Assembly: GCF_900108295.1 (NCBI RefSeq)
Contig: NZ_FNWK01000001.1
Coordinates: 1,860,001 to 1,924,000 of the forward strand
Direction of reading: 5' to 3'
Length of the DNA: 64,000 bases
Source of the DNA: Sphingopyxis sp. YR583
GTDB taxonomy: Bacteria; Pseudomonadota; Alphaproteobacteria; Sphingomonadales; Sphingomonadaceae
This document shows positions 38,245 to 51,407 of this stretch, in pieces. The notes beneath the pieces were generated by a model. The model made no database searches and was not told the DNA's origin. It saw only the letters and a program-made list of their open reading frames with translations. The position numbers were made by a program, and so were the translations under genes. Position 1 is the first letter of the stretch, and every line of letters begins with the position of its first letter.

Positions 38245-41200
38245 GTGAAGAAGATCATAGATTCGAAATTGAGACTGGGCGCGGCACCGCTGGTGCTGGG
38301 GCTCGCCCTCGTCTCGACGCCTGCCTTTGCGCAGGACGCCGCCGAAGAGGGCGCGTCGAGCCAACCTGAAATCGTCGTTACCGGCACGCTCATCCGCCGT
38401 CCCGACCTCACGATTTCGAGCCCGGTTACCGTCGTCGGAACCGAAGAAATCCAGTATAAGCAGCCGAACACGGCGGAAGATCTGCTCCGCGACCTGCCTT
38501 CGGTTCGCCCGGCGCTTGGCCCGGCAGTGAACAACGGCGGTGACGGCAGCTCGCAGGTCGACCTTCGCGGCCTGAACCAGGCCGGCTCCAACTCGTCGCA
38601 GCGCACGCTGGTGCTGCTCGACGGCCGCCGCATCGTGCCGTTCGGCCTCGACGGTTTCACCGACCTCAACAACATCCCGATCGCACTCGTCGAACGCGTC
38701 GACGTGCTGACCGGCGGTGCGTCGACCGTTTATGGTGCGGACGCCGTCGCCGGCGCGGTGAACTTCGTCACCAAGCGCAATTTCACGGGTCTCGACGCGT
38801 CGGCATCCTATCGTATCACCGAACGCGGCGACGGCCAGCAGTTCCGCGCCGACGTGGTGATGGGCGCCAGCTTCGACGATGATCGCGGTAACGTCGTCCT
38901 CGCGCTCGGCTACACCGACCGCAAGCCGGTCTTTTCGGTGGACCGCGAAGTCGGCCGTTTCCCGCGTTCGATCGCGAACGGCAATTTCCAGGGCGCTACG
39001 GCTGCGGTCCCGACGATCATTCAGGGTTCGCCGTCGAACGCCGCGCTGGGCCTTGCGGCCAGCGATTTCGGCGCTGCCTTCGATCCCGTGCTCGGCGTGT
39101 TCCGCCCGGCACTGCAGTCGGACACCTATAACACCAACGAATTCCAGTATGTTCAGGCACCGCTGGAACGCTTCAACGTTTACGCTCAGGCTCGCTATGA
39201 AATCAGCGACAATGTCGAAGCCTATGCCAGCGGCATGTTCACGCGCAACTCGGCGCGTATTCAGCTCGCCTCCACCGGCACGTTCAGCAATCCGTTCGTG
39301 ATCCCGATCAGCAACGCCTATCTGCCGGTTGCCGCTCGCAATCAGCTTTGCGGCGCGATTGGCCTGACGGCGGCACAATGTACCGCTGCTGCGACGGCCA
39401 CGTCGCGTACAGACCCCAACTATCGTGAAGTTGCGGCTTCGCCGGGTCGCCGTATCGTCGAATTCGGCGCACGCGGTAACCAGGTCGATTCGAACCAGTT
39501 CCAGATCCAGGGCGGTTTGCGCGGCAACATCACCGAGACGCTGCGGTACGACGTGTTCGGCCAATATGGTGAAACGACGCAGAATCAGACCCGCGAAAAC
39601 TGGGGTTCCTATTCGCGTCTGCAGCAGGCCCTGTTGTCGCGTCGTGACGCGAACAACAATCCGGTCTGCTACGACACGAGCAACGGCTGCGTTCCGATCA
39701 ACCTCTTCGGCCCGCTGGGTTCGATCAATTCGGACATGTTGAACTTCATCGACCTCGACGCGCAGATCCGTCGCGTGACGAAGCTGAGCGTCGTTGGCGC
39801 CAACATCTCGGGCGATTTGTTCGGGATTTCGAGCCCGTTCTCGGACAAGGCTGTCGCCTTCTCGCTGGGTGTCGAGCACCGCAACCTCTCGTCGCGCAGC
39901 AACCCGGACGCGCCGTCGCGGATCCAGAGCGAAGTTCTGGGTACGGGCGCACGCACGCCGGCGGACTTCGGCCGCATCACGGTGAAGGAAATCTTCGGCG
40001 AACTGATCGTTCCGATCGTCGAGGACAAGCCCTTCTTCTATGATCTGTCGCTCGAAGCTGGCCTTCGTTATTCGGATTACAACACCACCGGCACGTCGAC
40101 GACGTGGAAGGCCGGCGGTAGCTGGGAACCGGTACGGGGCTACAAGATCCGCGGCATGTACCAGGTCGCGGCGCGTTCGCCCAACATCCAGGAACTGTTC
40201 CAGTCGCCGGTTACGGGGCTGAACAACCTGGGTACCGATCCGTGTCAGGCAAGCCAGCTTGGCGTGCCCGGGTCGCCGACGGCGAACCCGCAGCTTGCAG
40301 CACTCTGCCAGTACACCGGTGCGCCGGCTGCTTCGATCGGCAACATCTCGTCGCCGACCTCGGGTCAGATCAACGCGACGACTTCGGGCAATCCCAACCT
40401 CGATGTCGAACGGGCCAAGACCTGGACGCTGGGCGTGGTGCTCCAGCCGTCCTTCGTGCCGAGCCTCGCCCTCACCGTCGATTATTTCAACATCAAGGTG
40501 AAGGATGCGATCAGCAACCCGGCTGCCGGCGATATTCTGAACGGTTGCTATTCGACCGCGCTGAATCCGAGCCAGACGCCGAATGCGTTCTGCGATCTGA
40601 TCAAGCGTAGCCCGAACAACGGGTCGCTCAACGGCGCTGGCGAAACCCCGGGGGTTATCCTGGCGGGTTCGAACCTCGGCCAGATCGAAACGGCAGGTAT
40701 CGACCTTGGTCTGACCTATCGTCTTGACCTCGGTGAAGACAGCGGTCTGCGGTTCAGCTTCAACGGCACGTGGCTCGACTATTACCACTTCCAGGCAACG
40801 CCGAACGCGATCAATCGCGACTGCACGGGCTACTACAGCACCAACTGCACCAACCCGCGCGCCGAATGGAAATGGAACAGCCGCCTGACCTACTCGAACG
40901 GACCGTTCGATATCTCGCTGATGTGGAATCACATCTCGAGCGTGCGTCTGGAACCCGCTGCCCTGCCGGCAGGCCAGCGTCCGGCGTTGGATGTCCCGCA
41001 GACCGCGGGTCCGAATCCGGCGAATATCTTTGACGCCTACGAACGCATCAAGGCCTATGATTATTTCGATCTGACGGTCGCGGCGGAAGTGAACGAGAAT
41101 TTCACGTTCACCTTTGGCGTCGAAAACCTGTTCGACAAGAAGCCGCCGGTGGTGGGCGCGACGATCGGTGGTACGGCATTCAACAATGCCAACACCTTCC

Positions 41201-41259
41201 CGTCGCTCTATGACACGATCGGACGGAGCTATTCGGTCACGACGCGTCTCAAGTTCTGA
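38245..41259 (+). CDS. TonB-dependent receptor 1
   Basis: Outer-membrane receptor of 1004 residues with a GTG start 38245 preceded by AAGGGG. A signal peptide (PLVLGLALVSTPAFAQ, cleavage near 30) is followed by the plug domain (IVVTGTLIRRPDLTISSPVT, LDGRRIVPFG, DVLTGGASTVYGADAVAGAV) and a long barrel ending in YSVTTRLKF with the C-terminal Phe. Short Cys pairs occur at 369/379, 475/482, 667/688, 768/783 and 860/868, probably loop disulfides. It is paralogous to the receptor at 43098. The substrate is unknown. A strong terminator follows. Confidence 0.95.
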   Translation: MKKIIDSKLRLGAAPLVLGLALVSTPAFAQDAAEEGASSQPEIVVTGTLIRRPDLTISSPVTVVGTEEIQYKQPNTAEDLLRDLPSVRPALGPAVNNGGDGSSQVDLRGLNQAGSNSSQRTLVLLDGRRIVPFGLDGFTDLNNIPIALVERVDVLTGGASTVYGADAVAGAVNFVTKRNFTGLDASASYRITERGDGQQFRADVVMGASFDDDRGNVVLALGYTDRKPVFSVDREVGRFPRSIANGNFQGATAAVPTIIQGSPSNAALGLAASDFGAAFDPVLGVFRPALQSDTYNTNEFQYVQAPLERFNVYAQARYEISDNVEAYASGMFTRNSARIQLASTGTFSNPFVIPISNAYLPVAARNQLCGAIGLTAAQCTAAATATSRTDPNYREVAASPGRRIVEFGARGNQVDSNQFQIQGGLRGNITETLRYDVFGQYGETTQNQTRENWGSYSRLQQALLSRRDANNNPVCYDTSNGCVPINLFGPLGSINSDMLNFIDLDAQIRRVTKLSVVGANISGDLFGISSPFSDKAVAFSLGVEHRNLSSRSNPDAPSRIQSEVLGTGARTPADFGRITVKEIFGELIVPIVEDKPFFYDLSLEAGLRYSDYNTTGTSTTWKAGGSWEPVRGYKIRGMYQVAARSPNIQELFQSPVTGLNNLGTDPCQASQLGVPGSPTANPQLAALCQYTGAPAASIGNISSPTSGQINATTSGNPNLDVERAKTWTLGVVLQPSFVPSLALTVDYFNIKVKDAISNPAAGDILNGCYSTALNPSQTPNAFCDLIKRSPNNGSLNGAGETPGVILAGSNLGQIETAGIDLGLTYRLDLGEDSGLRFSFNGTWLDYYHFQATPNAINRDCTGYYSTNCTNPRAEWKWNSRLTYSNGPFDISLMWNHISSVRLEPAALPAGQRPALDVPQTAGPNPANIFDAYERIKAYDYFDLTVAAEVNENFTFTFGVENLFDKKPPVVGATIGGTAFNNANTFPSLYDTIGRSYSVTTRLKF

Positions 41260-41281
41260 GGCACTCGAACTGAAAAAAATC

Positions 41282-41314
41282 GGGGGGCGGGCCTTGGGTC
41301 CGCCCCCTTTTTTT
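41282..41314 (+). terminator. rho-independent terminator after receptor 1
   Basis: GGGGGCGGGCC (41283-41293 region) and GGTCCGCCCCC form a GC hairpin immediately followed by seven T at 41308-41314. It separates the receptor from the TPR oxygenase gene that starts at 41352. Confidence 0.85.
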
Positions 41315-41351
41315 ATCGAGCATCGGCTGAGATGATTATAGGCTGTCCGCC

Positions 41352-42833
41352 ATGTCTTTCCCGGTTCAATCCCCTGAACAAGCCATCGATCTGGCGCTCG
41401 ACGCGCGCGACGCCGGACGCGGCGAAGACGCGTTGCCGCTGTTAAAAGCGGTGATCGCCGAGCATCCGCGCAATCCACGCCTGTGGCAGACCCTGGGTGT
41501 GCTCCATCGCGCGCTCAATGACAGTGCGGCCGCCGTCAAGGCTTTCACCGAAGCGGCGCGGCTGACACCTGCCGATCTGAAACCCGTCTATGGCGTCGCG
41601 CAGGCTAGCCTCGAGGCCGGCCGGCCGGCAACGGCGCTGTTCGAGCGCGCCCGCGCACTGGCGCCCGGCGACGGTTCGCTACTGCTCGGCCGCGCGGCGG
41701 CGCAAATTGCCGAGGGGCATGCCGACGAAGCCATAAACGGGCTCGCCGACATCGTCCGGAACAATCCTTTGTGGTTCGACGGTCAGGCGACGCTGGCGCG
41801 GCTGCGGTGGCTGGCGGGGGATCTGGACGGGTTCGCCGACGGCTATCGGCAAGCGCTGACCGGGATGCCGCAATCGGCGGCGCTCTGGAGCGAGCTTGTC
41901 AATCTGCTGATACATGTCGAGCGTTACGCCGACGCCGCGGCGGCGATCGGACAAGCGCAAGCGGCAATCGATACGCCGGACGCACTGATGCCGCTCGAGG
42001 CGGCCTGTGCGGCGGAACTCGGCGAGACGGACCGGGCCGACCGATTATTCGCGGCGCTTGCCGGCCGAGCCGACATCGGCATCGTCGAACGCCACCTTCG
42101 TCACTTGCTGCGTACCCGGCGCGCCGATGCGGCGGCGGCGCTCGCCGAACGCTGGCGCGATCATGCCGAGGCGAACCGTATCTGGCCCTATGTCTCGCTG
42201 GCGTGGCGCCTGACGGGTGACGATCGGATCGACTGGCTGGAGGGCGACCCGGCGTTGATCGGCGTCGTCGACCTTGATGTTGCCGATCTTCTCGTCCCGC
42301 TCGCCGAGCGTCTCCGTGCGTTGCACCGTGCCAAGGCGGCGCCGCTCGGCCAGTCGGTGCGCGGCGGCACCCAGACCGACGGGCCGCTTTTTGCGCGCGA
42401 GGAGCCCGAAATCCGCAAGCTGCGCGCCGCCATCGTCGATGCGGTGCGGGGCCATGTCGGCGGCATCGGACCGCGCGATGCCGCGCACCCGACGCGGCGG
42501 CACGTCGGTCGCAGCTTCGGCTTTTCGGGGTCCTGGTCGGTGCGACTGACCGGCGCCGGCCATCACAGCAACCATATCCATCCGCAAGGCTGGATCAGTT
42601 CCGCCTTCTATGTCGCGCTACCGCCGCCGGCGGACATGGGGCCCGAGCCGGCAGGCTGGCTGCAACTGGGGGCACCGCCGCACGAGCTCGGACTCGATCT
42701 GCCTGCGTATCGCACGATCGAGCCGGTGGCGGGACGGTTGATATTATTCCCCTCGACGATGTGGCACGGCACCTTGCCCTTCGCTGCGGGTGAGCGGTTG
42801 ACCGTCGCCTTCGACGTCGCGGCGGCCGGATAG
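41352..42833 (+). CDS. TPR protein with 2OG-Fe(II) oxygenase-type C-terminal domain, paralogue 1
   Basis: Protein of 493 residues without a signal peptide. The N-terminal two thirds are TPR-like helical repeats (LPLLKAVIAEHPRNPRLWQT, AVKAFTEAARLTPADLKPVY, AINGLADIVRNNPLWFDGQA). The C-terminal domain (about 335-493) has SVRGGTQTDGPLF, HHSNHIHPQGWISSAFYV (H404-H410) and LILFPSTMWHGTLPF (H472), as in putative 2OG-Fe(II) oxygenases (PF13759 type). The gene at 49477 is a paralogue. It may hydroxylate a protein or peptide recruited by the TPRs. That is inference. Confidence 0.87.
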   Translation: MSFPVQSPEQAIDLALDARDAGRGEDALPLLKAVIAEHPRNPRLWQTLGVLHRALNDSAAAVKAFTEAARLTPADLKPVYGVAQASLEAGRPATALFERARALAPGDGSLLLGRAAAQIAEGHADEAINGLADIVRNNPLWFDGQATLARLRWLAGDLDGFADGYRQALTGMPQSAALWSELVNLLIHVERYADAAAAIGQAQAAIDTPDALMPLEAACAAELGETDRADRLFAALAGRADIGIVERHLRHLLRTRRADAAAALAERWRDHAEANRIWPYVSLAWRLTGDDRIDWLEGDPALIGVVDLDVADLLVPLAERLRALHRAKAAPLGQSVRGGTQTDGPLFAREEPEIRKLRAAIVDAVRGHVGGIGPRDAAHPTRRHVGRSFGFSGSWSVRLTGAGHHSNHIHPQGWISSAFYVALPPPADMGPEPAGWLQLGAPPHELGLDLPAYRTIEPVAGRLILFPSTMWHGTLPFAAGERLTVAFDVAAAG

Positions 42834-43097
42834 CGCCCAGATCGCCCACCCGACCCCTAAAGATCGAGCCGTTTTCGCGGCCTGATGGCGCCGATAACTC
42901 CGTTTCGGTTGCTCTTTGCCATCTGTTGCAATTCAGACACAATCGCTGCGCAAACGACACAAATGACAGGAAATTGCTTTACTCGGCCAGTATCGGGGAT
43001 CATTCCGCAAGCATCCGGGGCGTTTAGTGTGACGATATTTGCCGTCGGAACACGCGCGCCCTTGGTAACGGAACCATCAGTAGCAAGGGACTGCACT
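42834..43097 (+). promoter_or_regulatory. leader of TonB receptor 2
   Basis: 264 bases with no supported gene. CTGTTGCAATTCAGACACAA (42923-42942), TTTACTCG (42978-42985), GTATCGGGG (42989-42997) and AAGGGACTGCACTGTG next to the start correspond to blocks in the leader of receptor 1, in the same order. The distance from TTTACTCG to the start codon is 120 bases here and 117 there. The two receptors are probably under common control. Confidence 0.6.
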
Positions 43098-46000
43098 GTG
43101 AAAACCACCAACATCACGAAATTGAAGATCGGCGTTGCGCCGTTCGTTCTCGGTATCGGCCTTCTCGCAAGTGCCGCGCCAGCCATGGCGCAGGACACGA
43201 CTGCGGAAGACAATGCCGGCGCCGAAGAGACGATCGTCGTCACCGGTTCGCGTATCCCGCAGGCCAATCTTGAATCGGCCGCCCCCGTCACCGTTGTCAC
43301 CAGCGAAGACATCAAGCTGCAGGGCACGACCCGCGTCGAAGACATGCTGAATTCGCTGCCTTCGGTGTTCGCCAGCCAGTCGTCGACCGCCGCAAACGGC
43401 GCTGACGGCACGGCAACGGTCGACCTTCGCGGCCTCGGCACCACGCGTACCCTCGCGCTGGTCAACGGCCGCCGCCTGCTGCCGGGCGACCCCAGCCCCG
43501 GAAGCGGTTCGGCCGCCGACATCAACATGATCCCGGCCTCGCTGCTGAAGAATGTTCAGGTTCTGACCGGCGGCGCTTCGGCGACCTATGGTGCGGACGC
43601 GGTCGCGGGCGTCGTTAACTTCGTGATGGATACCGATTTCACCGGTTTCCGCCTCGACGGCCAGTATAGCGTCTTCCAGCACACCAATCGCAACAAGCTG
43701 ACCCCGCCGATCCTCGATGCGCGCGGCTTCGGCTATCCGACCTCGAGCGTCGTCGATGGCGGCACGGTCGACCTGACCGCGACCTTCGGCGCCGCCTTCG
43801 ACGACGGCCGCGGCCACATCGTCGCCTATGCCGGCTACCGCAAGGCGAAGGCCGTGCTTCAGTCGAACCGCGACTATAGCGCCTGTACGATCCAGAACAC
43901 GGGTGGCGGTGTTCCGAACTGCGGCGGCTCGCTGACCAACGCCACGGGCACGGCGATCCTGTTCGACCCGACGCTCAACACGGCGTCGTCGACGGTCTAC
44001 AGCTTCCTGCCGGGCGGCGGCTTCGAAAACACCACCTCGCGGTACAATTTCGCGCCGACGAACCACTTCCAGCGTCCCGACGAACGCTACACGGCCGGCC
44101 TGTTCGCGAATTATGAGATCAACGAGTCGATCAAGCCGTACATGGAGTTCATGTTCATGGACGACCGCACGGTCGCCCAGATCGCTCCGTCGGGCAACTT
44201 CGGCAACACGCTGACGATCAACTGCGACAACGCGCTGATGTCGGCCGCCCAGCGCGCCGTCATTTGCGCCAATCCGAACCTGATCAACGGCTATATCGGC
44301 AATTTCCCGACCGCCATCGCGGCGCCGTACAACACGATCGCCAACGGAGCGCCCGGACCGGGCGCGCCGGCGCTGGTGTTCACCGACTCGCTCGGCAACA
44401 CCTATAATCAGGGCTTCCTCCAGGTTCTGCGCCGCAACGTCGAAGGCGGTCCGCGTCAGAGCGATCTGCAGCACACCAACTTCCGCGGCGTGATCGGTGC
44501 GAAGGGCGACCTCGGCAAGGCCTGGTCGTATGACGCCTATTATCAATATGGCCGTTCGAACTACACCCAGGTCTATTCGAACGAATTCTCGGTCGCCCGC
44601 CTCGGCCGCGCGCTGAACGTCATCGACGATCCGCGCACCGCTGCGTTCGATCCGGTTTGCCGTTCGGTCATCGACGGCAGCGATCCGACCTGCGTTCCTT
44701 ATAACATCTTCAACGGAGCCGGCGGCGCAAGCCCCGAATCGATCGCCTATCTGTCGGCGACCGGTTTCCAGAAGGGGTATACGTCGGAACAGGTCGCCAA
44801 CGTGTCGTTCACCGGCCTGCTCGGCGAATATGGCATGACCTTGCCGTGGGCGCAGGATGGCATCAGCGCGAACATCGGTTTCGAATGGCGCAAGGAATCG
44901 CTCGACCTCAAGACCGACAATGCGTTCAGCACGGGCGATCTGACCGGTCAGGGCGGTGCGACGCTGCCGCTGTCGGGCAGCTTCCGCGTCTATGAATTCT
45001 TCGCCGAAACGCAGGTTCCGTTGGTGCAGGAAAGCTTCATCTACGACCTGACCTTCAGCGGTGGCTATCGCAAGTCGTGGTACGAGACGAGCGCCGACCG
45101 GAAATATGACACCGACACCTACAAGCTGCAGCTTGAACTGGCGCCGGTTCGCGATATCCGGTTCCGCGGCCAGTATAACCGTGCGGTCCGCGCCCCGAAC
45201 ATTCAGGAACTGTTCTCGACGCCGACCGTCGGCCTGAACGGTGCGAGCGATCCGTGCGCAGGCCGCACGATCACCGCGACCGATTATGGCTGTATCGCGC
45301 AGGGCCTTGCCGTCGGGCAGGGCACGACCGCGAACCCGGCTGGTCAGTATAACGGTCTTCTGGGCGGCAACCCCGACCTGAAGCCCGAAACGGCGACGAC
45401 CAAGACGCTGGGCGTCATCCTGCAGCCCGGCTTCCTGCCGCGCTTCTCGCTGACGGTCGACTGGTTCGACATCAAGCTCAAGAATGCGATCCAGCCGCCG
45501 GCGCAGGATGCGATCCTCAAGGATTGTACCCTCAACGCCACGGCGACCTCGACGCCCTTCTCGTGCAGCCTCATCTTCCGCGACCCTGCCGGGTCGCTGT
45601 GGCTGACCCCGGGCGGCTATGTCGACAATATCCCGTCGAACCTTGGCCGCGTCCACACGAGCGGTGTCGAAATCAACAGCGCGTACAGCCAGGAAATTGG
45701 CGACCTCGGCACGCTGTCGTTCAACTTCGTCGGCACCTATCTCGACAAGTATAAGGTCGATAACGGCATCACCGCGCCTTACGACTGCGCCGGACTTTAT
45801 GGCCCGGTCTGCAGCTCGGGCGGCACGACCGCCGGTGGTTCGATGCTGCCGAAATGGCGCCACAAGCTGCGCTCGACCTTCCAGTTCGCGGACGGTGTCG
45901 GCGTTTCGTTCCAGTGGCGCTTCATCGGCAAGGTCAAGGCCGAGACCACCAGCGCCAGCCAGTCGCTGAACGCTGATCCGGACTCGATCTTCGATCCGGG

Positions 46001-46244
46001 CGCGCGCATCAAGTCGTACAGCTTCTTCGACCTGACGACGACGTTCAACGTCTCGGACAATTACACCTTCCGTCTGGGCGTCAACAATCTGTTCGACAAG
46101 CAGCCGCCGCTGGTGACGTCGGGCAATGCGGGCGTCGATGGTTCGAACCTGTGTCCGACGGGTCCGTGCAACGGCAACACCTATCCGGCGACCTATGACG
46201 CGCTGGGCCGTTACTTGTTCGCAGGCTTCACGCTGGACTTTTAA
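43098..46244 (+). CDS. TonB-dependent receptor 2
   Basis: Outer-membrane receptor of 1048 residues. I used GTG 43098 because it opens a signal peptide (PFVLGIGLLASAAPAMAQ) nearly parallel to receptor 1. The longer in-frame ATG at 42885 would add 71 residues without family features. Plug motifs are IVVTGSRIPQANLESAAPVT, VNGRRLLPG and VLTGGASATYGADAVAGVV. The barrel ends in LFAGFTLDF. It has about seven Cys pairs in short spacing (NCDNALM..VIC, DPCAG..YGC, LCPTGPC). The substrate is unknown. Confidence 0.95.
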   Translation: MKTTNITKLKIGVAPFVLGIGLLASAAPAMAQDTTAEDNAGAEETIVVTGSRIPQANLESAAPVTVVTSEDIKLQGTTRVEDMLNSLPSVFASQSSTAANGADGTATVDLRGLGTTRTLALVNGRRLLPGDPSPGSGSAADINMIPASLLKNVQVLTGGASATYGADAVAGVVNFVMDTDFTGFRLDGQYSVFQHTNRNKLTPPILDARGFGYPTSSVVDGGTVDLTATFGAAFDDGRGHIVAYAGYRKAKAVLQSNRDYSACTIQNTGGGVPNCGGSLTNATGTAILFDPTLNTASSTVYSFLPGGGFENTTSRYNFAPTNHFQRPDERYTAGLFANYEINESIKPYMEFMFMDDRTVAQIAPSGNFGNTLTINCDNALMSAAQRAVICANPNLINGYIGNFPTAIAAPYNTIANGAPGPGAPALVFTDSLGNTYNQGFLQVLRRNVEGGPRQSDLQHTNFRGVIGAKGDLGKAWSYDAYYQYGRSNYTQVYSNEFSVARLGRALNVIDDPRTAAFDPVCRSVIDGSDPTCVPYNIFNGAGGASPESIAYLSATGFQKGYTSEQVANVSFTGLLGEYGMTLPWAQDGISANIGFEWRKESLDLKTDNAFSTGDLTGQGGATLPLSGSFRVYEFFAETQVPLVQESFIYDLTFSGGYRKSWYETSADRKYDTDTYKLQLELAPVRDIRFRGQYNRAVRAPNIQELFSTPTVGLNGASDPCAGRTITATDYGCIAQGLAVGQGTTANPAGQYNGLLGGNPDLKPETATTKTLGVILQPGFLPRFSLTVDWFDIKLKNAIQPPAQDAILKDCTLNATATSTPFSCSLIFRDPAGSLWLTPGGYVDNIPSNLGRVHTSGVEINSAYSQEIGDLGTLSFNFVGTYLDKYKVDNGITAPYDCAGLYGPVCSSGGTTAGGSMLPKWRHKLRSTFQFADGVGVSFQWRFIGKVKAETTSASQSLNADPDSIFDPGARIKSYSFFDLTTTFNVSDNYTFRLGVNNLFDKQPPLVTSGNAGVDGSNLCPTGPCNGNTYPATYDALGRYLFAGFTLDF

Positions 46245-46266
46245 GGTCGGCATTTAACCCTAAGAT

Positions 46267-46303
46267 GGGGCGGCTGGTCATGCGACCCGCCGCCCCTTTT
46301 TTT
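46267..46303 (+). terminator. rho-independent terminator after receptor 2
   Basis: GGGGCGG (46267-46273) and CCGCCCC (46290-46296), with more pairing inside, form a hairpin followed by seven T (46297-46303). It ends only ten bases before the next gene start, so partial read-through into the sulfotransferase operon is likely. Confidence 0.85.
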
Positions 46304-46313
46304 GATTCGACGG

Positions 46314-48326
46314 ATGATGAAGATGCTCGATCCCAAGACCGCCGATGTGCTGCGCCAGGCGGTCGGGGCCGCGCAATCGGGCGATGCGGCGCGCGCGCGC
46401 CAGCTTGCGGAAGGCGCGCTGGAGGCGGGCGGGGACCGGACAGCGCTCAACGCGTTTCTCGGCATGTTGCTTGCCCGGTCGAACGATCTTGCGGGCGCCG
46501 TCCGGCACTTGCAGGCGGCACACGCCGAGCGGCCGGCCGATACGACGATCGCGTGCAACCTGATCGCAGTGTTGATCGACAAGGGTGACCTCGGCGATGC
46601 GCTGGTGATCGCCACCGTCGATCTGGCGCGCAGCGATCCGACGCTGCGGATCGCGCGGTATCGCGGCTTTGTGGCGCAGTCGCTCGAACGCTTCGACGAA
46701 GCCGTCGAGGCTTATGAGCAGGTCGTCGCGCGCGAACCCGATGATTTCGAAAGCTGGAACAATCTGGGCAACGCCCGGTCGGCGACGGGCGATTTGGACG
46801 GCAGCGTCGCGGCGCTTGAAAAGGCGATGGCGCTGAACCCGCTGGCGCCGCCGACGCGCCTCAACCTCGCGGTGGCGCTGCGATCGGTGGGCCGCGCCGA
46901 AGAGGCAGAAACCCTGCTGCGCAAGACGGCCGAAGAATTTCCGAATGACGCGCGCGCGCTCCACGAACTTTATGTGCAGTACAAGAAGGAAGGCCGCCAG
47001 GATGAGGCGATGGCAGCGCTGGAAGGCGCACTCGCACGCGATCCGGTCAACGCCAACCTCCAGCTGAAATTCGGCGTCGAATGCGGGCTGGTGAACCGGA
47101 TCGAAGAGGCCGAACAGGCCTTTCGCAAGGTGTTGGAAATCGACCCGGCGGTTGTCGACGCCTATCTTGGCCTGACCGTCCAGTACGAGCATAGCAACCG
47201 TGAGGACGAATTTGCGCCGCTCATCGCATTGGCGGAAGCCAATGGTATCGATGATGGCGCGCTCGCCTTCATGCGCGCTTTCGAATATCGCCGCGCCAAG
47301 CGGTTCGAGGACGCGCTCGAAAGCCTCGCGCTCGTACCATCGGGGGTCGAACTCGAACGGACGACGCATCTGCGCGGGCAGATTCTCGACCGGCTCGGCC
47401 GTATCGACGAGGCTTTCGCAGCCTTCAGCGAAACCAATCGCCTGCATCAGCAATCGGCAACCGACCCGCTGCAACGCTCGGCCGAACTGCGCGCGCAGGT
47501 GCGCGGCGACCTAGAACTGATGACTCCCGCGTGGGCGGCGAGTTGGCCCGCGATCGAGACCGTGCGCGACCATCCCGATCCGGTATTCCTGCTCGGTTTT
47601 CCGCGATCGGGAACCACCTTGCTCGATACGATCCTGATGGGGCATCCCGATACGGCCGTGCTCGAAGAGCAGCCGCCGCTGAACCTGACCGACAAGCGGA
47701 TTGGTGGAACTTCGGCGATCCCGGGGCTCGACGCCGCGGCAGTCGCCGATGCGCGCCGTTTCTATTTCGAGGAAATTGCGAAGGTCGCGCCCACCCCGCT
47801 GGCGCCCGGGCGCATGCTCGTCGACAAGTCGCCGCTGTTCCTGACGAAGGCGGTGCTGATCCAGCGGTTGTTTCCGAACGCACGCTTCATCCTTGCGCTC
47901 CGCCATCCGTGCGACGTGCTGCTGAGCTGTTTCATGAGCAATTTCCGGCTCAACAATGCGATGTCGAACTTCCTGCGGCTCGAAGACGCCGCGGACTTCT
48001 ATGACCTTGCCTTTTCACACTGGGAGCGCGCGCGCGAATTGTTCGGATTGAATGTCCACACGATCGTGTACGAGCGGTTGATCGAGGATGTCGGGGCCGA
48101 AGTGCGGCCGCTGTTCGATTTTCTCGGGCTCGAATGGCGCGACGAAGTGCTCGACCATCAGGCGACCGCGAAGAAGCGCGGGCTGATCACCACCGCGAGC
48201 TATGCGCAGGTCGTCGAGCCGATCTACAAGCGCGCCGCCGGGCGGTGGGAAGGCTATCGCGCGCATCTCGAGCCGATCCTGCCGGTCCTGCGTCCGTGGG
48301 TCGAGAAATTCGGATACAGCCTGTGA
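46314..48326 (+). CDS. TPR-fused sulfotransferase
   Basis: Protein of about 670 residues without a signal peptide. Residues about 10-390 are TPR repeats (AVEAYEQVVAREPDDFESWN, AVAALEKAMALNPLAPPTRL, AEQAFRKVLEIDPAVVDAYL). The C-terminal domain is a PAPS-dependent sulfotransferase: FLLGFPRSGTTLLD (F425 on) is the 5'-phosphosulfate loop and RFILALRHPCDVLLSCFM (R524 on) the 3'-phosphate loop. ATG 46314 is used; 46317 and 46323 are alternatives. Its stop overlaps the next start (GTGA). The TPR part suggests a protein or peptide acceptor. The acceptor is not known. Confidence 0.9.
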   Translation: MMKMLDPKTADVLRQAVGAAQSGDAARARQLAEGALEAGGDRTALNAFLGMLLARSNDLAGAVRHLQAAHAERPADTTIACNLIAVLIDKGDLGDALVIATVDLARSDPTLRIARYRGFVAQSLERFDEAVEAYEQVVAREPDDFESWNNLGNARSATGDLDGSVAALEKAMALNPLAPPTRLNLAVALRSVGRAEEAETLLRKTAEEFPNDARALHELYVQYKKEGRQDEAMAALEGALARDPVNANLQLKFGVECGLVNRIEEAEQAFRKVLEIDPAVVDAYLGLTVQYEHSNREDEFAPLIALAEANGIDDGALAFMRAFEYRRAKRFEDALESLALVPSGVELERTTHLRGQILDRLGRIDEAFAAFSETNRLHQQSATDPLQRSAELRAQVRGDLELMTPAWAASWPAIETVRDHPDPVFLLGFPRSGTTLLDTILMGHPDTAVLEEQPPLNLTDKRIGGTSAIPGLDAAAVADARRFYFEEIAKVAPTPLAPGRMLVDKSPLFLTKAVLIQRLFPNARFILALRHPCDVLLSCFMSNFRLNNAMSNFLRLEDAADFYDLAFSHWERARELFGLNVHTIVYERLIEDVGAEVRPLFDFLGLEWRDEVLDHQATAKKRGLITTASYAQVVEPIYKRAAGRWEGYRAHLEPILPVLRPWVEKFGYSL

Positions 48327-49480
48327 GCGACGAACGCGCCGCGCTGATCGCCGCGGCCGACCGCGCGCTGGCGGCGCAGGATCTGGCGCGTGCGGCGGCG
48401 TTGCTCGAGGAGGCGCTGTCCTCGGGCGAGGATTTTTCGGTGTTGCTGCGGCTCGCAGGTGTCCAGCGCGCAGCCGGCCGTCCACGCTTCGCGCTCGCCG
48501 CGGTTCACCGCGCGCTCGCGCTCGCGCCGCTCGACTTTACCGCTCTGATGATGCGCGCCAGTCTGCTCGACCGGATCGGCGATCCGGGCGCCGGCGAGGC
48601 ATGGGGGCATGCGATCGCACAGCGGCCGGACGAGGCGCTGCCGCCGCAACTGGCCCAGGTTCTTGCTGAAGGCGAACGAAAATATGCGGCCTGGCTCGAC
48701 GCGAAGGATGCGCGCTGGAGCGAGCTGACGGGCGATGCCGAGGCGCGCGCCGATGCCGGCGAGCGCGACCGTATCGCGCGCTTCCGCAGCAACGCCCTGC
48801 GCCGCACGCGGCCCTATCATAGCGAACCGACCCATTTTCATTTTCCGGGTCTGCGCGAGCGCGAATTCCACCCACGCAGCCTGTTCCCATGGCTGGCGGA
48901 CATCGAGGCGGCGACCGATACGATCGCGGACGAACTCGACGCGGTGATGAATGCCGAGCGCGCCGAGCTTGTGCCCTATGTGCAATATGCGGCGCACCAG
49001 CCGCTCGACCAATGGCGCACGCTCAATCACAATCCCGACTGGACCGCGATCCACCTGATGCGTGGCGGCCGGCGAATCGAGGCCAATGCGCGCCATTGCC
49101 CGGCGACGCTCGCGCTGATCGAGGGGGTCGCGCAGCCGGTGATCGCCGGCGCATCGCCCAATGTCATGTTTTCGCTGCTCGCGCCGGGCACCGCGATTCC
49201 GCCGCATGTCGGTTATAATAATGCGCGGCTTGTCTGCCATCTGCCGCTGGTCGTGCCCGCGGGATGCTGGTTCCGCGTCGGCGCCGAAACCCGCGAATGG
49301 CGGCGCGGCGCGGCGTTCGTGTTCGACGATACGATCGAGCATGAAGCGATGAACCCGAGCGACCGGTTGCGCGTCGTCCTGATCTTCGACCTGTGGCATC
49401 CCGACCTGACCCCGGTCGAACGCGAAGCGGTCGCGGCGCTGATCGGCAGCGATGCGAACCAGCTTCCGGAGAATGCGTGA
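48323..49480 (+). CDS. TPR-fused aspartyl/asparaginyl beta-hydroxylase
   Basis: Protein of 385 residues starting at GTG 48323, overlapping the sulfotransferase stop. N-terminal TPR-like helices (about 1-115) precede an Asp/Asn beta-hydroxylase domain (PF05118, about 170-365). Its motifs include HFHFPGLREREFH, FSLLAPGTAIPPHVGYNNAR (H295), LPLVVPAGCWFRVG, FDDTIEHEAMN (H340) and DRLRVVLIFD (R350 as likely 2OG ligand). The spacing H..H..R matches the family. It uses Fe(II) and 2-oxoglutarate. The protein substrate is unknown. It overlaps the next gene. Confidence 0.9.
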   Translation: MSDERAALIAAADRALAAQDLARAAALLEEALSSGEDFSVLLRLAGVQRAAGRPRFALAAVHRALALAPLDFTALMMRASLLDRIGDPGAGEAWGHAIAQRPDEALPPQLAQVLAEGERKYAAWLDAKDARWSELTGDAEARADAGERDRIARFRSNALRRTRPYHSEPTHFHFPGLREREFHPRSLFPWLADIEAATDTIADELDAVMNAERAELVPYVQYAAHQPLDQWRTLNHNPDWTAIHLMRGGRRIEANARHCPATLALIEGVAQPVIAGASPNVMFSLLAPGTAIPPHVGYNNARLVCHLPLVVPAGCWFRVGAETREWRRGAAFVFDDTIEHEAMNPSDRLRVVLIFDLWHPDLTPVEREAVAALIGSDANQLPENA

Positions 49481-50997
49481 ATTTTGCGGCGCGGCTTGCC
49501 GCCGTCCGTGCCGGGCAGGCCGATGGCGACAGCCTGGGCCAGCTTGCCAGCCTTGCGCTCGACGAGGGCGAAGAGGCGGCGGCGCTGCCCATGCTTATTG
49601 CAGCCGCCAAGGCGAGCGGTGGCGCGCGCTTCTGGCAATGGACGGGCTTGCTGCACCGCGGGCTCGACGAGCATGAGGCGGCGCTTGCGGCTTTCGACGA
49701 GGCGGCGCAGCGCGCGCCGGAAGACGCGGGCATTGCGCACGGCCGCGCCCGCGTCGCTTTCGAGGCCGGGCTTGACGCGGTTTCGCTTTTCGAGGCGGCC
49801 GAGCGGCTGGGGCCGCCGAATGGCGATGTGCTGATCGGTCTGGCGGCGGCGCGCTGGGCGGCGGGGCAGGGCGATGCGGCCGAAGCCGCGCTCGACGCGA
49901 TTGTCGCACAGGTGCCGCTGTGGATGCAGGGACATGCGCAGCTCGCGCAATTGCGCGCGCTGATGGGGCGGCGCAACGGGGCGACCGCGTCGTTCGAGCG
50001 TGCGCTTGCGCAGGAGCCGGCGTCGGTCGCGCTCTGGCGCGGATTGCTCGATCTGCACCTGCGCAACGAGGACCATGCCGCGCAGGCGGCTGTCGCCGAG
50101 CGCGCCGAGGCGGCCGGGGTGCCCGCTGCCGAGCTGGCCGATCATGCGGCGATCGCTGCCGCCGAACTGGGGCAGGCCGATCGCGCGGACCGTTTGTTCG
50201 AAACACTGCCGGACGCCGCGATGCGTCTCGCGGTGCGGATATGGCGCGTGCGGCACCTTCTTCGCACCGGCCGATTTGCGCAGGCGTGGCCGCTGATCGA
50301 TGCCGAAATCGAAGCGGGCGGCGCGCGGCGCGCGGCGATCTGGCCCTATGCGTTGCTGCTGTGGCGCGATCGGGGCGATCCGCGATATGACTGGCTGGTC
50401 GGTAACCCGGACCTTGTGCGCGAATTCGACCTGCGCGACCGCCTGCCGCCACTTGGCGAGCTGGCGGCGCATCTCCGCTCGCTCCATGTTGCGCGCAGCG
50501 AATATCTCGACCAGTCGGTGCGGGGGGGGACGCAGACCGACGGCCCGCTGTTCAGCCGTGTCGATCCGCTGATCCGGACGCTGCGCACGGCGGTCGTCGA
50601 GGCGGTCGACGCCTATGTCGCGGCACTGCCGGCGCCCGATGCCGCGCATCCGTTGCTGGGGCCGCCACGCGACCGCCGCCGCCGCTTTGCCGGTAGCTGG
50701 TCGGTCCGACTGCGCGGCTCCGGCTATCACGCCAATCACGTTCATCCGCAAGGCTGGGTGAGTTCGGCGCTTTATGTGGCCTTGCCCGAAAGGCGCCCCG
50801 CCGATGCGCCCGATGCGGGCTGGCTGACATTGGGCGAACCGCAGGATACGCTCGGGCTCGATCTGGCGCCGATCAGGCGCGTCGAACCCAAGCCGGGGCG
50901 GCTGGTGTTGTTTCCATCGTGGCTATGGCACGGAACCCGGCCGTTTGCCGAAGGCGAACGGCTCACGGTCGCCTTCGACGTGGCGGTGCCGCGTTGA
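49477..50997 (+). CDS. TPR protein with 2OG-Fe(II) oxygenase-type domain, paralogue 2
   Basis: Protein of 506 residues starting at GTG 49477, overlapping the upstream stop (GTGA). TPR-like repeats (HEAALAAFDEAAQRAPEDAG, AEAALDAIVAQVPLWMQGHA) fill the first 330 residues. The C-terminal domain shares with the gene at 41352 the segments LDQSVRGGTQTDGPLF, GSWSVRLRGSGYHANHVHPQ (H418, H421, H423), LVLFPSWLWHGTRPF (H485) and ERLTVAFDVA. The two are clear paralogues. It is the last gene of the three-gene modifying-enzyme operon. Confidence 0.88.
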   Translation: MNFAARLAAVRAGQADGDSLGQLASLALDEGEEAAALPMLIAAAKASGGARFWQWTGLLHRGLDEHEAALAAFDEAAQRAPEDAGIAHGRARVAFEAGLDAVSLFEAAERLGPPNGDVLIGLAAARWAAGQGDAAEAALDAIVAQVPLWMQGHAQLAQLRALMGRRNGATASFERALAQEPASVALWRGLLDLHLRNEDHAAQAAVAERAEAAGVPAAELADHAAIAAAELGQADRADRLFETLPDAAMRLAVRIWRVRHLLRTGRFAQAWPLIDAEIEAGGARRAAIWPYALLLWRDRGDPRYDWLVGNPDLVREFDLRDRLPPLGELAAHLRSLHVARSEYLDQSVRGGTQTDGPLFSRVDPLIRTLRTAVVEAVDAYVAALPAPDAAHPLLGPPRDRRRRFAGSWSVRLRGSGYHANHVHPQGWVSSALYVALPERRPADAPDAGWLTLGEPQDTLGLDLAPIRRVEPKPGRLVLFPSWLWHGTRPFAEGERLTVAFDVAVPR

Positions 50998-51056
50998 ACA
51001 GCGCGAATCCGCCGTTCATCGAAAAGGCTTGGCCGCCCGGAGAGGAGGGCATAAAC

Positions 51057-51407
51057 ATGGATTATCAGATGATATTGAGGGCGTTTGCCATGCTTTCTGT
51101 TCGTTCCCTGTCGCTAGCCGCATTGCTCGGCTGTTCGATGATGATGTCGGTCGCAAGCCAAGCGGCCGATCCCGATACCGCTTCCTCGACCCCCGCCACC
51201 GCTGCGGCGCCCGCCGCGACCGCGTCGGGCAAAGGCAAAAAGAAAGCCGATCCGAACGAGGTTGTTTGCCGGAAAGAGGACGTGCTGGGCAGCCGCCTCC
51301 GGTCGCAACGCATCTGCATGACGCGGAGCGAATGGGCCGAAGCGAACCGCCAGCAGCGCAGCGAGGTCGAACGCCGGCAGGTTCAGCGCGGTTCGGTGAC
51401 GCGATAG
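51057..51407 (+). CDS. small secreted protein with a conserved two-Cys motif
   Basis: Protein of 116 residues. ATG 51057 follows GGAGAGGAGGG. Another start at 51090 (MLSVRSLSLAALLGC) would give a more standard signal peptide. An Ala/Thr/Lys-rich linker (about 45-70) leads to a C-terminal domain with VVCRKEDVLGSRLRSQRICM, then TRSEWAEANRQQ, a motif I recall in many short alphaproteobacterial secreted proteins of unknown role. It follows the TPR oxygenase gene by 59 bases and could belong to that system or be independent. Confidence 0.82.
   Translation: MDYQMILRAFAMLSVRSLSLAALLGCSMMMSVASQAADPDTASSTPATAAAPAATASGKGKKKADPNEVVCRKEDVLGSRLRSQRICMTRSEWAEANRQQRSEVERRQVQRGSVTR

Follow-up and report, generated by a model that had tools for sequence, protein, structure and literature searches.

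What brings genes for soluble sulfating and hydroxylating enzymes to lie between genes for TonB-dependent receptors? The question is raised by a locus of Sphingopyxis sp. YR583 (genome size 4.31 Mb), which occupies positions 38,245 to 51,407 of a 64,000-nucleotide stretch of contig NZ_FNWK01000001.1, hereafter the window. Two receptor genes (P0001 and P0003) are interleaved with genes for two 2-oxoglutarate (2OG) oxygenases of family PF13759 (P0002 and P0006), a sulfotransferase (P0004) and an oxygenase of family PF05118 (P0005), followed by a gene for a small secreted protein (SSP, P0007). A preliminary description had proposed that the enzymes, which carry tetratricopeptide repeats (TPRs), share a polypeptide substrate, either a receptor before export or a short secreted peptide. 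The recurring, operon-like neighbourhood and the protein-modifying relatives of the enzymes speak for a shared polypeptide, while the short secreted peptide fits poorly in that role. The reading that we favor, with a probability of about 0.5, is that the receptor encoded alongside the enzymes is their substrate and is modified in the cytoplasm, ahead of export.

The association was assessed with receptors selected by receptor similarity alone. GTDB representative genomes were scanned with an alignment of 12 P0003-clade receptors and the best 80 of 559 confirmed loci were taken, the closest named ones being from Sphingopyxis (81–82% in the best segment). Five were dropped for a short right flank, leaving 75 with at least 700 bp to the right of the focal receptor (the best-scoring plus-strand receptor of the locus). 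In 62 of the 75, the next recognised same-strand gene within 500 bp encodes one of the three enzymes [sulfotransferase 40, PF13759 15, PF05118 7]. When the right flank reaches 4.5 kb or more (66 loci), one or more of the three enzymes are found within 6 kb in 59 loci and the sulfotransferase in 57. All three are present in 21, PF13759 plus sulfotransferase in 17, the sulfotransferase alone in 13 and PF05118 plus sulfotransferase in 6; PF05118 plus PF13759 and PF05118 alone were each seen once, and seven loci have none. Enzyme genes within 6 kb lie on the receptor strand 127 times and on the opposite strand seven times. Moreover, adjacent enzyme genes overlap or nearly touch when the first possible starts are used (sulfotransferase–PF05118, 19/20; PF05118–PF13759, 16/16; PF13759–sulfotransferase, 16/17). 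Because every gene start was set at the first possible codon, the gaps are lower bounds; the gene families were found by small home-made profiles, which may overlook distant receptors and leave unrecognised genes in between. The loci come from related species and hence are not independent. Hosts with enzymes include Sphingopyxis, Sphingomonas, Novosphingobium, Sphingobium, Qipengyuania, Erythrobacter, Tsuneonella, and Stakelama, and two Caulobacter receptors and one Niveispirillum receptor in the set have no enzyme of the three families in the flanking stretch analysed.

On the receptor tree, the minimum number of changes is 5 for the sulfotransferase, compared with 12 for PF13759 and 15 for PF05118, which argues that the receptor–sulfotransferase pair is the stable core and that the oxygenases come and go. 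The pairing is wider than the studied clade, since more distant TPR-sulfotransferases (L153, L154, L156, L160, L161, and L170) directly adjoin, on the same strand, a different and shorter class of TonB-dependent transporter (TBDT; weak profile score). In one genome, four TPR-sulfotransferase-like genes stand in tandem on one strand (L135:5455-13049), with no receptor recognised in the 19-kb stretch analysed.

Looking from the enzymes leads to the same association. PF13759 is present in 104 of 147 Sphingomonadales genomes. Of 80 long-frame PF13759 genes, 56 have a TBDT gene no more than 5 kb away; the corresponding counts are 1 of 20 for short-frame genes (Fisher p = 9e-8) and 2 of 20 for control midpoints (p = 1e-6). 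Long frames are open frames of about 430 aa or more, presumed and not individually checked to be TPR-fused. The 80 come from the top of a genome listing from which at least G062, G126, G134, G025, G044 (C1:1423624), G066, G115, and G040:C9 were left out; some genomes contribute more than one, and the two genes of the window are excluded. The short-frame controls head the same listing, and the "random" midpoints are from stretches at a single fixed coordinate (700001) on 20 large contigs. For the more distant TPR-sulfotransferases the share with a TBDT within 5 kb is 9 of 20 (p = 0.03 versus midpoints). Among PF05118 genes, at least 31 of 71 that strongly resemble P0005 have a listed P0003-like receptor at a distance of 5 kb or less, compared with 0 of 15 weakly similar short ones; counts of this kind, here and for SSP, refer to listed receptors (122 places, with at most five candidates scored per genome) and are lower bounds. 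This comparison omits 18 entries at 108–148 bits, entries below 46 bits, and one at 65.8 bits (G001:C93:20076-20714; query residues 15–226, about 1.6 kb from a listed receptor), which if included makes the short group 1/16 instead of 0/15. By these neighbourhood counts, co-occurrence in Sphingomonadales is above chance, and the possibility raised in the preliminary description, that the enzymes lie mostly apart from TonB receptors in relatives, did not hold.

Such clustering could be an accident of one inherited site next to clpB, with functionally unrelated genes. In the window, as in several relatives, the cluster does have purD/xseA/M23-peptidase genes on one side and clpB on the other, and clpB is found in 31 of the 57 loci of at least 18 kb. 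However, 16 of the 57 have neither clpB nor the M23 gene, and in 11 of these the enzymes still stand beside the receptor; the cluster is therefore not tied to a single place in the chromosome. The genes are closely spaced and biased to one strand, their order varies and their content has changed repeatedly, all of which favours a common function. TBDTs also adjoin long-frame PF13759 genes sampled across the order. Collectively, these data have already largely refuted an accidental origin, which we regard as hardly credible.

Within the window, ORF and Pfam analyses confirmed all seven genes in the order and at the positions first reported (Table 1), together with the GTGA overlaps that couple the last three enzyme genes. 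The statement that all four enzymes are TPR-fused stands clearly for P0002, P0004, and P0006; the TPR of P0005 is weak. None of the four has a strongly hydrophobic N-terminus, in agreement with the earlier claim that they lack signal peptides: by hydropathy count, used here in place of a signal-peptide program, the best 13-residue Kyte-Doolittle means are 0.25–1.42 for the enzymes, 2.34 and 2.35 for the receptors and 1.95 for SSP. The start of receptor 2 is most likely the GTG given in Table 1, and not the first codon of its ORF, because the signal peptide begins there. This correction puts 264 bases between P0002 and P0003. The gap, together with the hairpin and T run after P0001, suggests two units, i.e., receptor plus 2OG oxygenase, and receptor plus sulfotransferase, PF05118 oxygenase, 2OG oxygenase and SSP, the last starting some 60 bases 3′ of the final enzyme gene. 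The Rfam search gave nothing above the gathering score in 34000–55000, and a sigma-70 promoter scan found 2 sites versus 2.0 expected.

Table 1 Genes and hairpin of the receptor–enzyme locus, in positions of the window.
Feature	Position	Strand	Remarks
TonB-dependent receptor 1 (P0001)	38245..41259	+	GTG start, signal peptide; PF07715 and PF00593; hydrophobic N-terminus
Hairpin, terminator or attenuator	41282..41308	+	12 pairs, G+C-rich, then T run; between receptor 1 and P0002
TPR and 2OG-Fe(II) oxygenase, PF13759 (P0002)	41352..42833	+	Pfam; no signal peptide seen
TonB-dependent receptor 2 (P0003)	43098..46244	+	Corrected GTG start, ORF opens at 42885; TonB barrel and plug (Pfam)
TPR-sulfotransferase (P0004)	46323..48326	+	About 667 aa; TPR superhelix and PF13469
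PF05118 oxygenase (P0005)	48323..49480	+	Weak N-terminal TPR; GTGA overlap with sulfotransferase gene
TPR and 2OG-Fe(II) oxygenase, PF13759 (P0006/P0011)	49477..50997	+	506 aa; GTGA overlap with PF05118 gene
Small secreted two-Cys protein (P0007, SSP)	51057..51407	+	ATG 51057; no Pfam family at E<=0.01

Hairpins of this kind recur. A stem of at least 7 pairs with a T-rich tail within 150 bp past the receptor stop was found at 45 of the 62 receptor–enzyme junctions, versus 0.2 expected from mononucleotide shuffles of the same stretches (20 per junction). The simplest reading is that the receptor is abundant and the enzymes are made in catalytic amounts, through read-through of a leaky terminator or from a separate promoter behind it.

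What might the enzymes act on? P0004 combines TPRs with PF13469 (Pfam), and its closest solved catalytic relatives are TPST2 and TPST1. The motifs for 3′-phosphoadenosine 5′-phosphosulfate (PAPS) are kept in P0004-like sequences [n = 115; 3′-motif Arg 114 and Ser 110, 5′-motif Ser 98 and first Thr 83 (31 Ser)]. So are the equivalents of the catalytic TPST residues Glu99, the base (114/115), and Lys158 (111/115). In contrast to TPST1 and TPST2, the P0004 type has a long N-terminal TPR superhelix and no signal sequence was seen; moreover, the position of Arg101, which meets the substrate in TPSTs, is Pro in 85 of the 115 sequences and Arg in 2. These 115 sequences, like the 48 PF05118 sequences below, are those from the fetched loci over a score limit, and not all lie beside receptors. 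Protein Tyr would most simply be the target. A family of about 340 aa also occurs near receptors [L065:6062-7060 (-), L109:7573-8622 (-), L138:8610-9632 (-), L212, L240, and L267]; for its L065 member, Pfam returned nothing at E<=0.001, and an N-terminal sulfotransferase-like P-loop (HVGSTL / YCCSTL) can be seen in the family by eye. The family may represent a second, TPR-free sulfotransferase.

P0005 matches PF05118 (E 6.4e-44); for its TPR there is no Pfam hit at E<=0.01, and the N-terminus weakly matches one NCBIfam TPR profile (E 0.0024). It had been labelled an Asp/Asn hydroxylase. The TPR-plus-oxygenase architecture is that of human AspH, the substrates of which are Asp/Asn residues in EGF-like domains, and the equivalents of AspH His679 and His725 (two-His metal site) and of Arg735 and Ser668 (2OG site) are present in 48 of 48 PF05118 sequences. 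According to PMC6817910, Lys666 and Arg688 of AspH bind the substrate carboxylate. In all 48 sequences, however, both are absent: the Lys666 position is M/L/F/V and the Arg688 position V/I/L/T, i.e., hydrophobic apart from one Thr at the second (Met and Val in the window). The bacterial P0005 type also differs from AspH in that no signal peptide was seen. Thus the catalytic residues are kept and the label is doubtful as regards the residue targeted, which is probably not Asp in the manner of AspH.

The PF13759 enzymes P0002 and P0006 carry TPRs (Pfam) and are 49% identical to each other. His418, His421, His423, His485, and the 2OG-type Arg495 are invariant in 55 PF13759 sequences. To our knowledge, no substrate is known for this family. 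The modeled PF13759 domain has the double-stranded beta-helix oxygenase fold, with solved hydroxylase relatives at 17–19% identity, and in this it resembles the protein prolyl hydroxylases P. putida P4H, PHD2, OGFOD1, and P3H1. The likeness to prolyl hydroxylases is one of fold only; P3H1-type enzymes (leprecans) likewise carry an N-terminal TPR domain, as stated in PMC6817910. From the model, proline-type hydroxylation is the leading guess. Further 2OG oxygenases recur in the neighbourhood [PF13661 and PF13640 in the members tested; L077:5729-6457 (-) and L065:5394-6053 (-)], as does a methyltransferase family [L070:11229-12071 (-) (PF08241), L075, L084, and L086].

The closest relatives with a solved structure and a known activity modify proteins, which makes a polypeptide the best reading of the substrate. 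Catalytic domains with such relatives, TPRs, the lack of signal peptides and exported neighbours together point to a precursor polypeptide that would be met in the cytoplasm. By construction, each receptor-selected locus contains the receptor, and in 13 of 66 the sulfotransferase is its sole partner among the three enzymes. It has also to be considered that the enzymes make or modify a small ligand (a peptide, a lipid or a siderophore-like molecule, bearing sulfate and hydroxyl groups), which the cell secretes and then re-imports through the adjacent receptor. TonB receptors do import ligands, and methanobactin clusters combine a ribosomal peptide with a TonB receptor. In addition, PF05118 includes lipid hydroxylases; P0005 scores E 3.5e-25 and 88.7 bits against the OlsC profile, for which the cut-off is 450. 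In a methanobactin genome-mining paper (PMC3621798), the word sulfotransferase occurs six times. Yet Pfam revealed no peptide synthetase or exporter among the seven window genes (small precursor ORFs were not searched for), the sulfotransferase stands without the other two enzymes within 6 kb in the 13 loci just mentioned, and the nearest solved relatives of known activity act on proteins. This alternative seems unlikely.

A different polypeptide might be the target, namely SSP or the secreted protein of cluster c3, which would then act at or through the receptor. The SSP family has two Cys, GSR and EW motifs and no Pfam family, is matched in 32 of 147 genomes and, by eye, has a lipobox-like LLGC in its signal peptide. 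SSP is often last in a run: it occurs in 21 of 66 runs, 10 of which read exactly sulfotransferase–PF05118–PF13759–SSP, and at least 21 of 46 listed SSP genes have a P0003-like receptor no more than 5 kb away. The bufferins are an example of small exported proteins that undergo modification ahead of Sec export. Nevertheless, 45 of 66 loci lack SSP on the receptor strand (37 when only the 58 loci with some recognised gene downstream are counted), ten of the 45 with the sulfotransferase only, and some copies lie on the other strand. It also occurs, sometimes two or three in tandem, at loci without enzymes, and is the sole family of the five searched in 10 of 12 SSP-selected loci (L140–L152; none in L149), a share biased upwards because these loci were picked among SSP genes outside those already fetched. 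Moreover, Tyr is absent from the last 75 residues in 30 of 39 copies, and the window copy lacks it beyond residue 30; by its composition, SSP is a poor substrate for tyrosine sulfation. Being often missing from runs, present without enzymes, and poor in Tyr, it fits worse than the receptor, and we consider it quite improbable that SSP or the c3 protein is the substrate. Members of cluster c3 are probably secreted proteins of about 200 aa, encoded upstream or downstream of many receptors [L065:14959-15609 (+) and L077:92-745 (-), among others]; at E<=0.001, no Pfam family matches the L065 member.

How, then, would modification of the receptor before export proceed? The locus would comprise two receptor-plus-enzyme units of a system recurring in Sphingomonadales. 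In each, the receptor gene would be strongly transcribed, and the hairpin, where present, would pass little transcription or separate weakly expressed enzyme genes; the enzyme genes of a unit may be transcribed as one operon. Their products would be soluble cytoplasmic enzymes with the TPR superhelix ahead of the catalytic domain, and the TPR domain would capture the unfolded receptor precursor prior to Sec export. The sulfotransferase would transfer sulfate from PAPS, most simply onto Tyr, while the two oxygenase types would hydroxylate side chains. After export and insertion, altered surface loops might change the ligand, the stability, or recognition by phages and toxins.

Several findings weigh against this model. 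Thirteen of the 75 receptors have no gene or another gene next, three of these with little right flank, and no TBDT lies up to 5 kb from 24 of the 80 long-frame PF13759 genes, some of which are on short contigs. Seven extra loci with P0004-like sulfotransferases (L133–L139) include four without a TBDT (L134–L137, two of them on contigs of 4–6 kb); L133, L138, and L139 contain one. Receptor 1 of the window is followed by a hairpin and receptor 2 is not. No Tyr column marks enzyme-bearing receptors, and, once kinship is corrected for, none of the receptor residues follows an enzyme: Fisher tests flagged 69 columns for PF13759, 23 for PF05118 and 55 for the sulfotransferase, and in independent-pair tests on the tree (the top 60 of the 69, all 23, and all 55) the pairs were at most 4 to 0. 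As only 7 of the 66 receptors are without all enzymes, the power of this comparison is low, and it neither supports nor excludes the receptor. Six Cys pairs 8–14 residues apart are invariant or nearly so in the receptor clade (L193 319/331, 439/453, 588/599, 787/799, 877/890, and 964/972), which suggests six small disulfide loops; as AspH-like targets these Cys-bounded loops were rejected, since the twelve Cys are equally frequent without enzymes. TPR domains also mediate self-association. Finally, in the text of a top-down study of the Novosphingobium aromaticivorans periplasm (PMC3608174), "hydroxyl" occurs 0 times; the study reports other modifications, but the proteins that it identified were 55 from the periplasmic fraction.

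Other receptor features were considered. The best column, an Asp at L193 position 291 with PF13759 (36/39 versus 6/27), was rejected in view of its short turn, many substitutions and kinship. The conserved signal-peptide motif AP-L-x-L-G is no more than a lead as a recognition tag for the enzymes: it occurs in 40 of 132 receptors that have an enzyme no more than 3 kb away versus 4 of 33 others, a comparison group containing loci cut by contig ends, and seems to follow kinship. An extra Cys pair near the receptor C-terminus is present in 52 of 59 receptors with enzymes versus 2 of 7 without (no kinship correction).

TonB-dependent receptors are a main route for scarce nutrients in Sphingomonadales and common targets of phages and bacteriocins. 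Our tentative suggestion is that one class of them is sulfated and hydroxylated before export by mix-and-match TPR enzymes, the set of which varies frequently over evolution, giving a variable chemical code and representing a new system of post-translational modification. If so, prediction of the ligand from the receptor sequence alone would be incomplete, bacterial protein sulfation would be more widespread than its known example RaxST, and AspH-like enzymes would gain a tractable bacterial model. A search of the open-access literature, confined to open-licence papers so that absence is not proven, found no description of such a system.

We know of no counterpart for the chemistry, the receptor class, or the mix-and-match enzyme set, and two kinds of gene cluster are among the closest known systems. 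Methanobactin-type clusters join a TonB receptor with modifying enzymes, including a sulfotransferase in some; Pfam found no core maturation enzyme of that type in the seven window genes (small precursor ORFs were not searched for), and the enzymes here, unlike those, are TPR-fused. The cytosolic glycosyltransferases HMW1C and TibC/AAH are encoded with the adhesins that they modify before export. In the window, the gene arrangement likewise places soluble modifiers without signal peptides with an exported surface protein, here predicted to be modified before export. The difference lies in the chemistry and its target: sugars on adhesins in those systems, and, as predicted here, sulfate and hydroxyl groups on TonB receptors.

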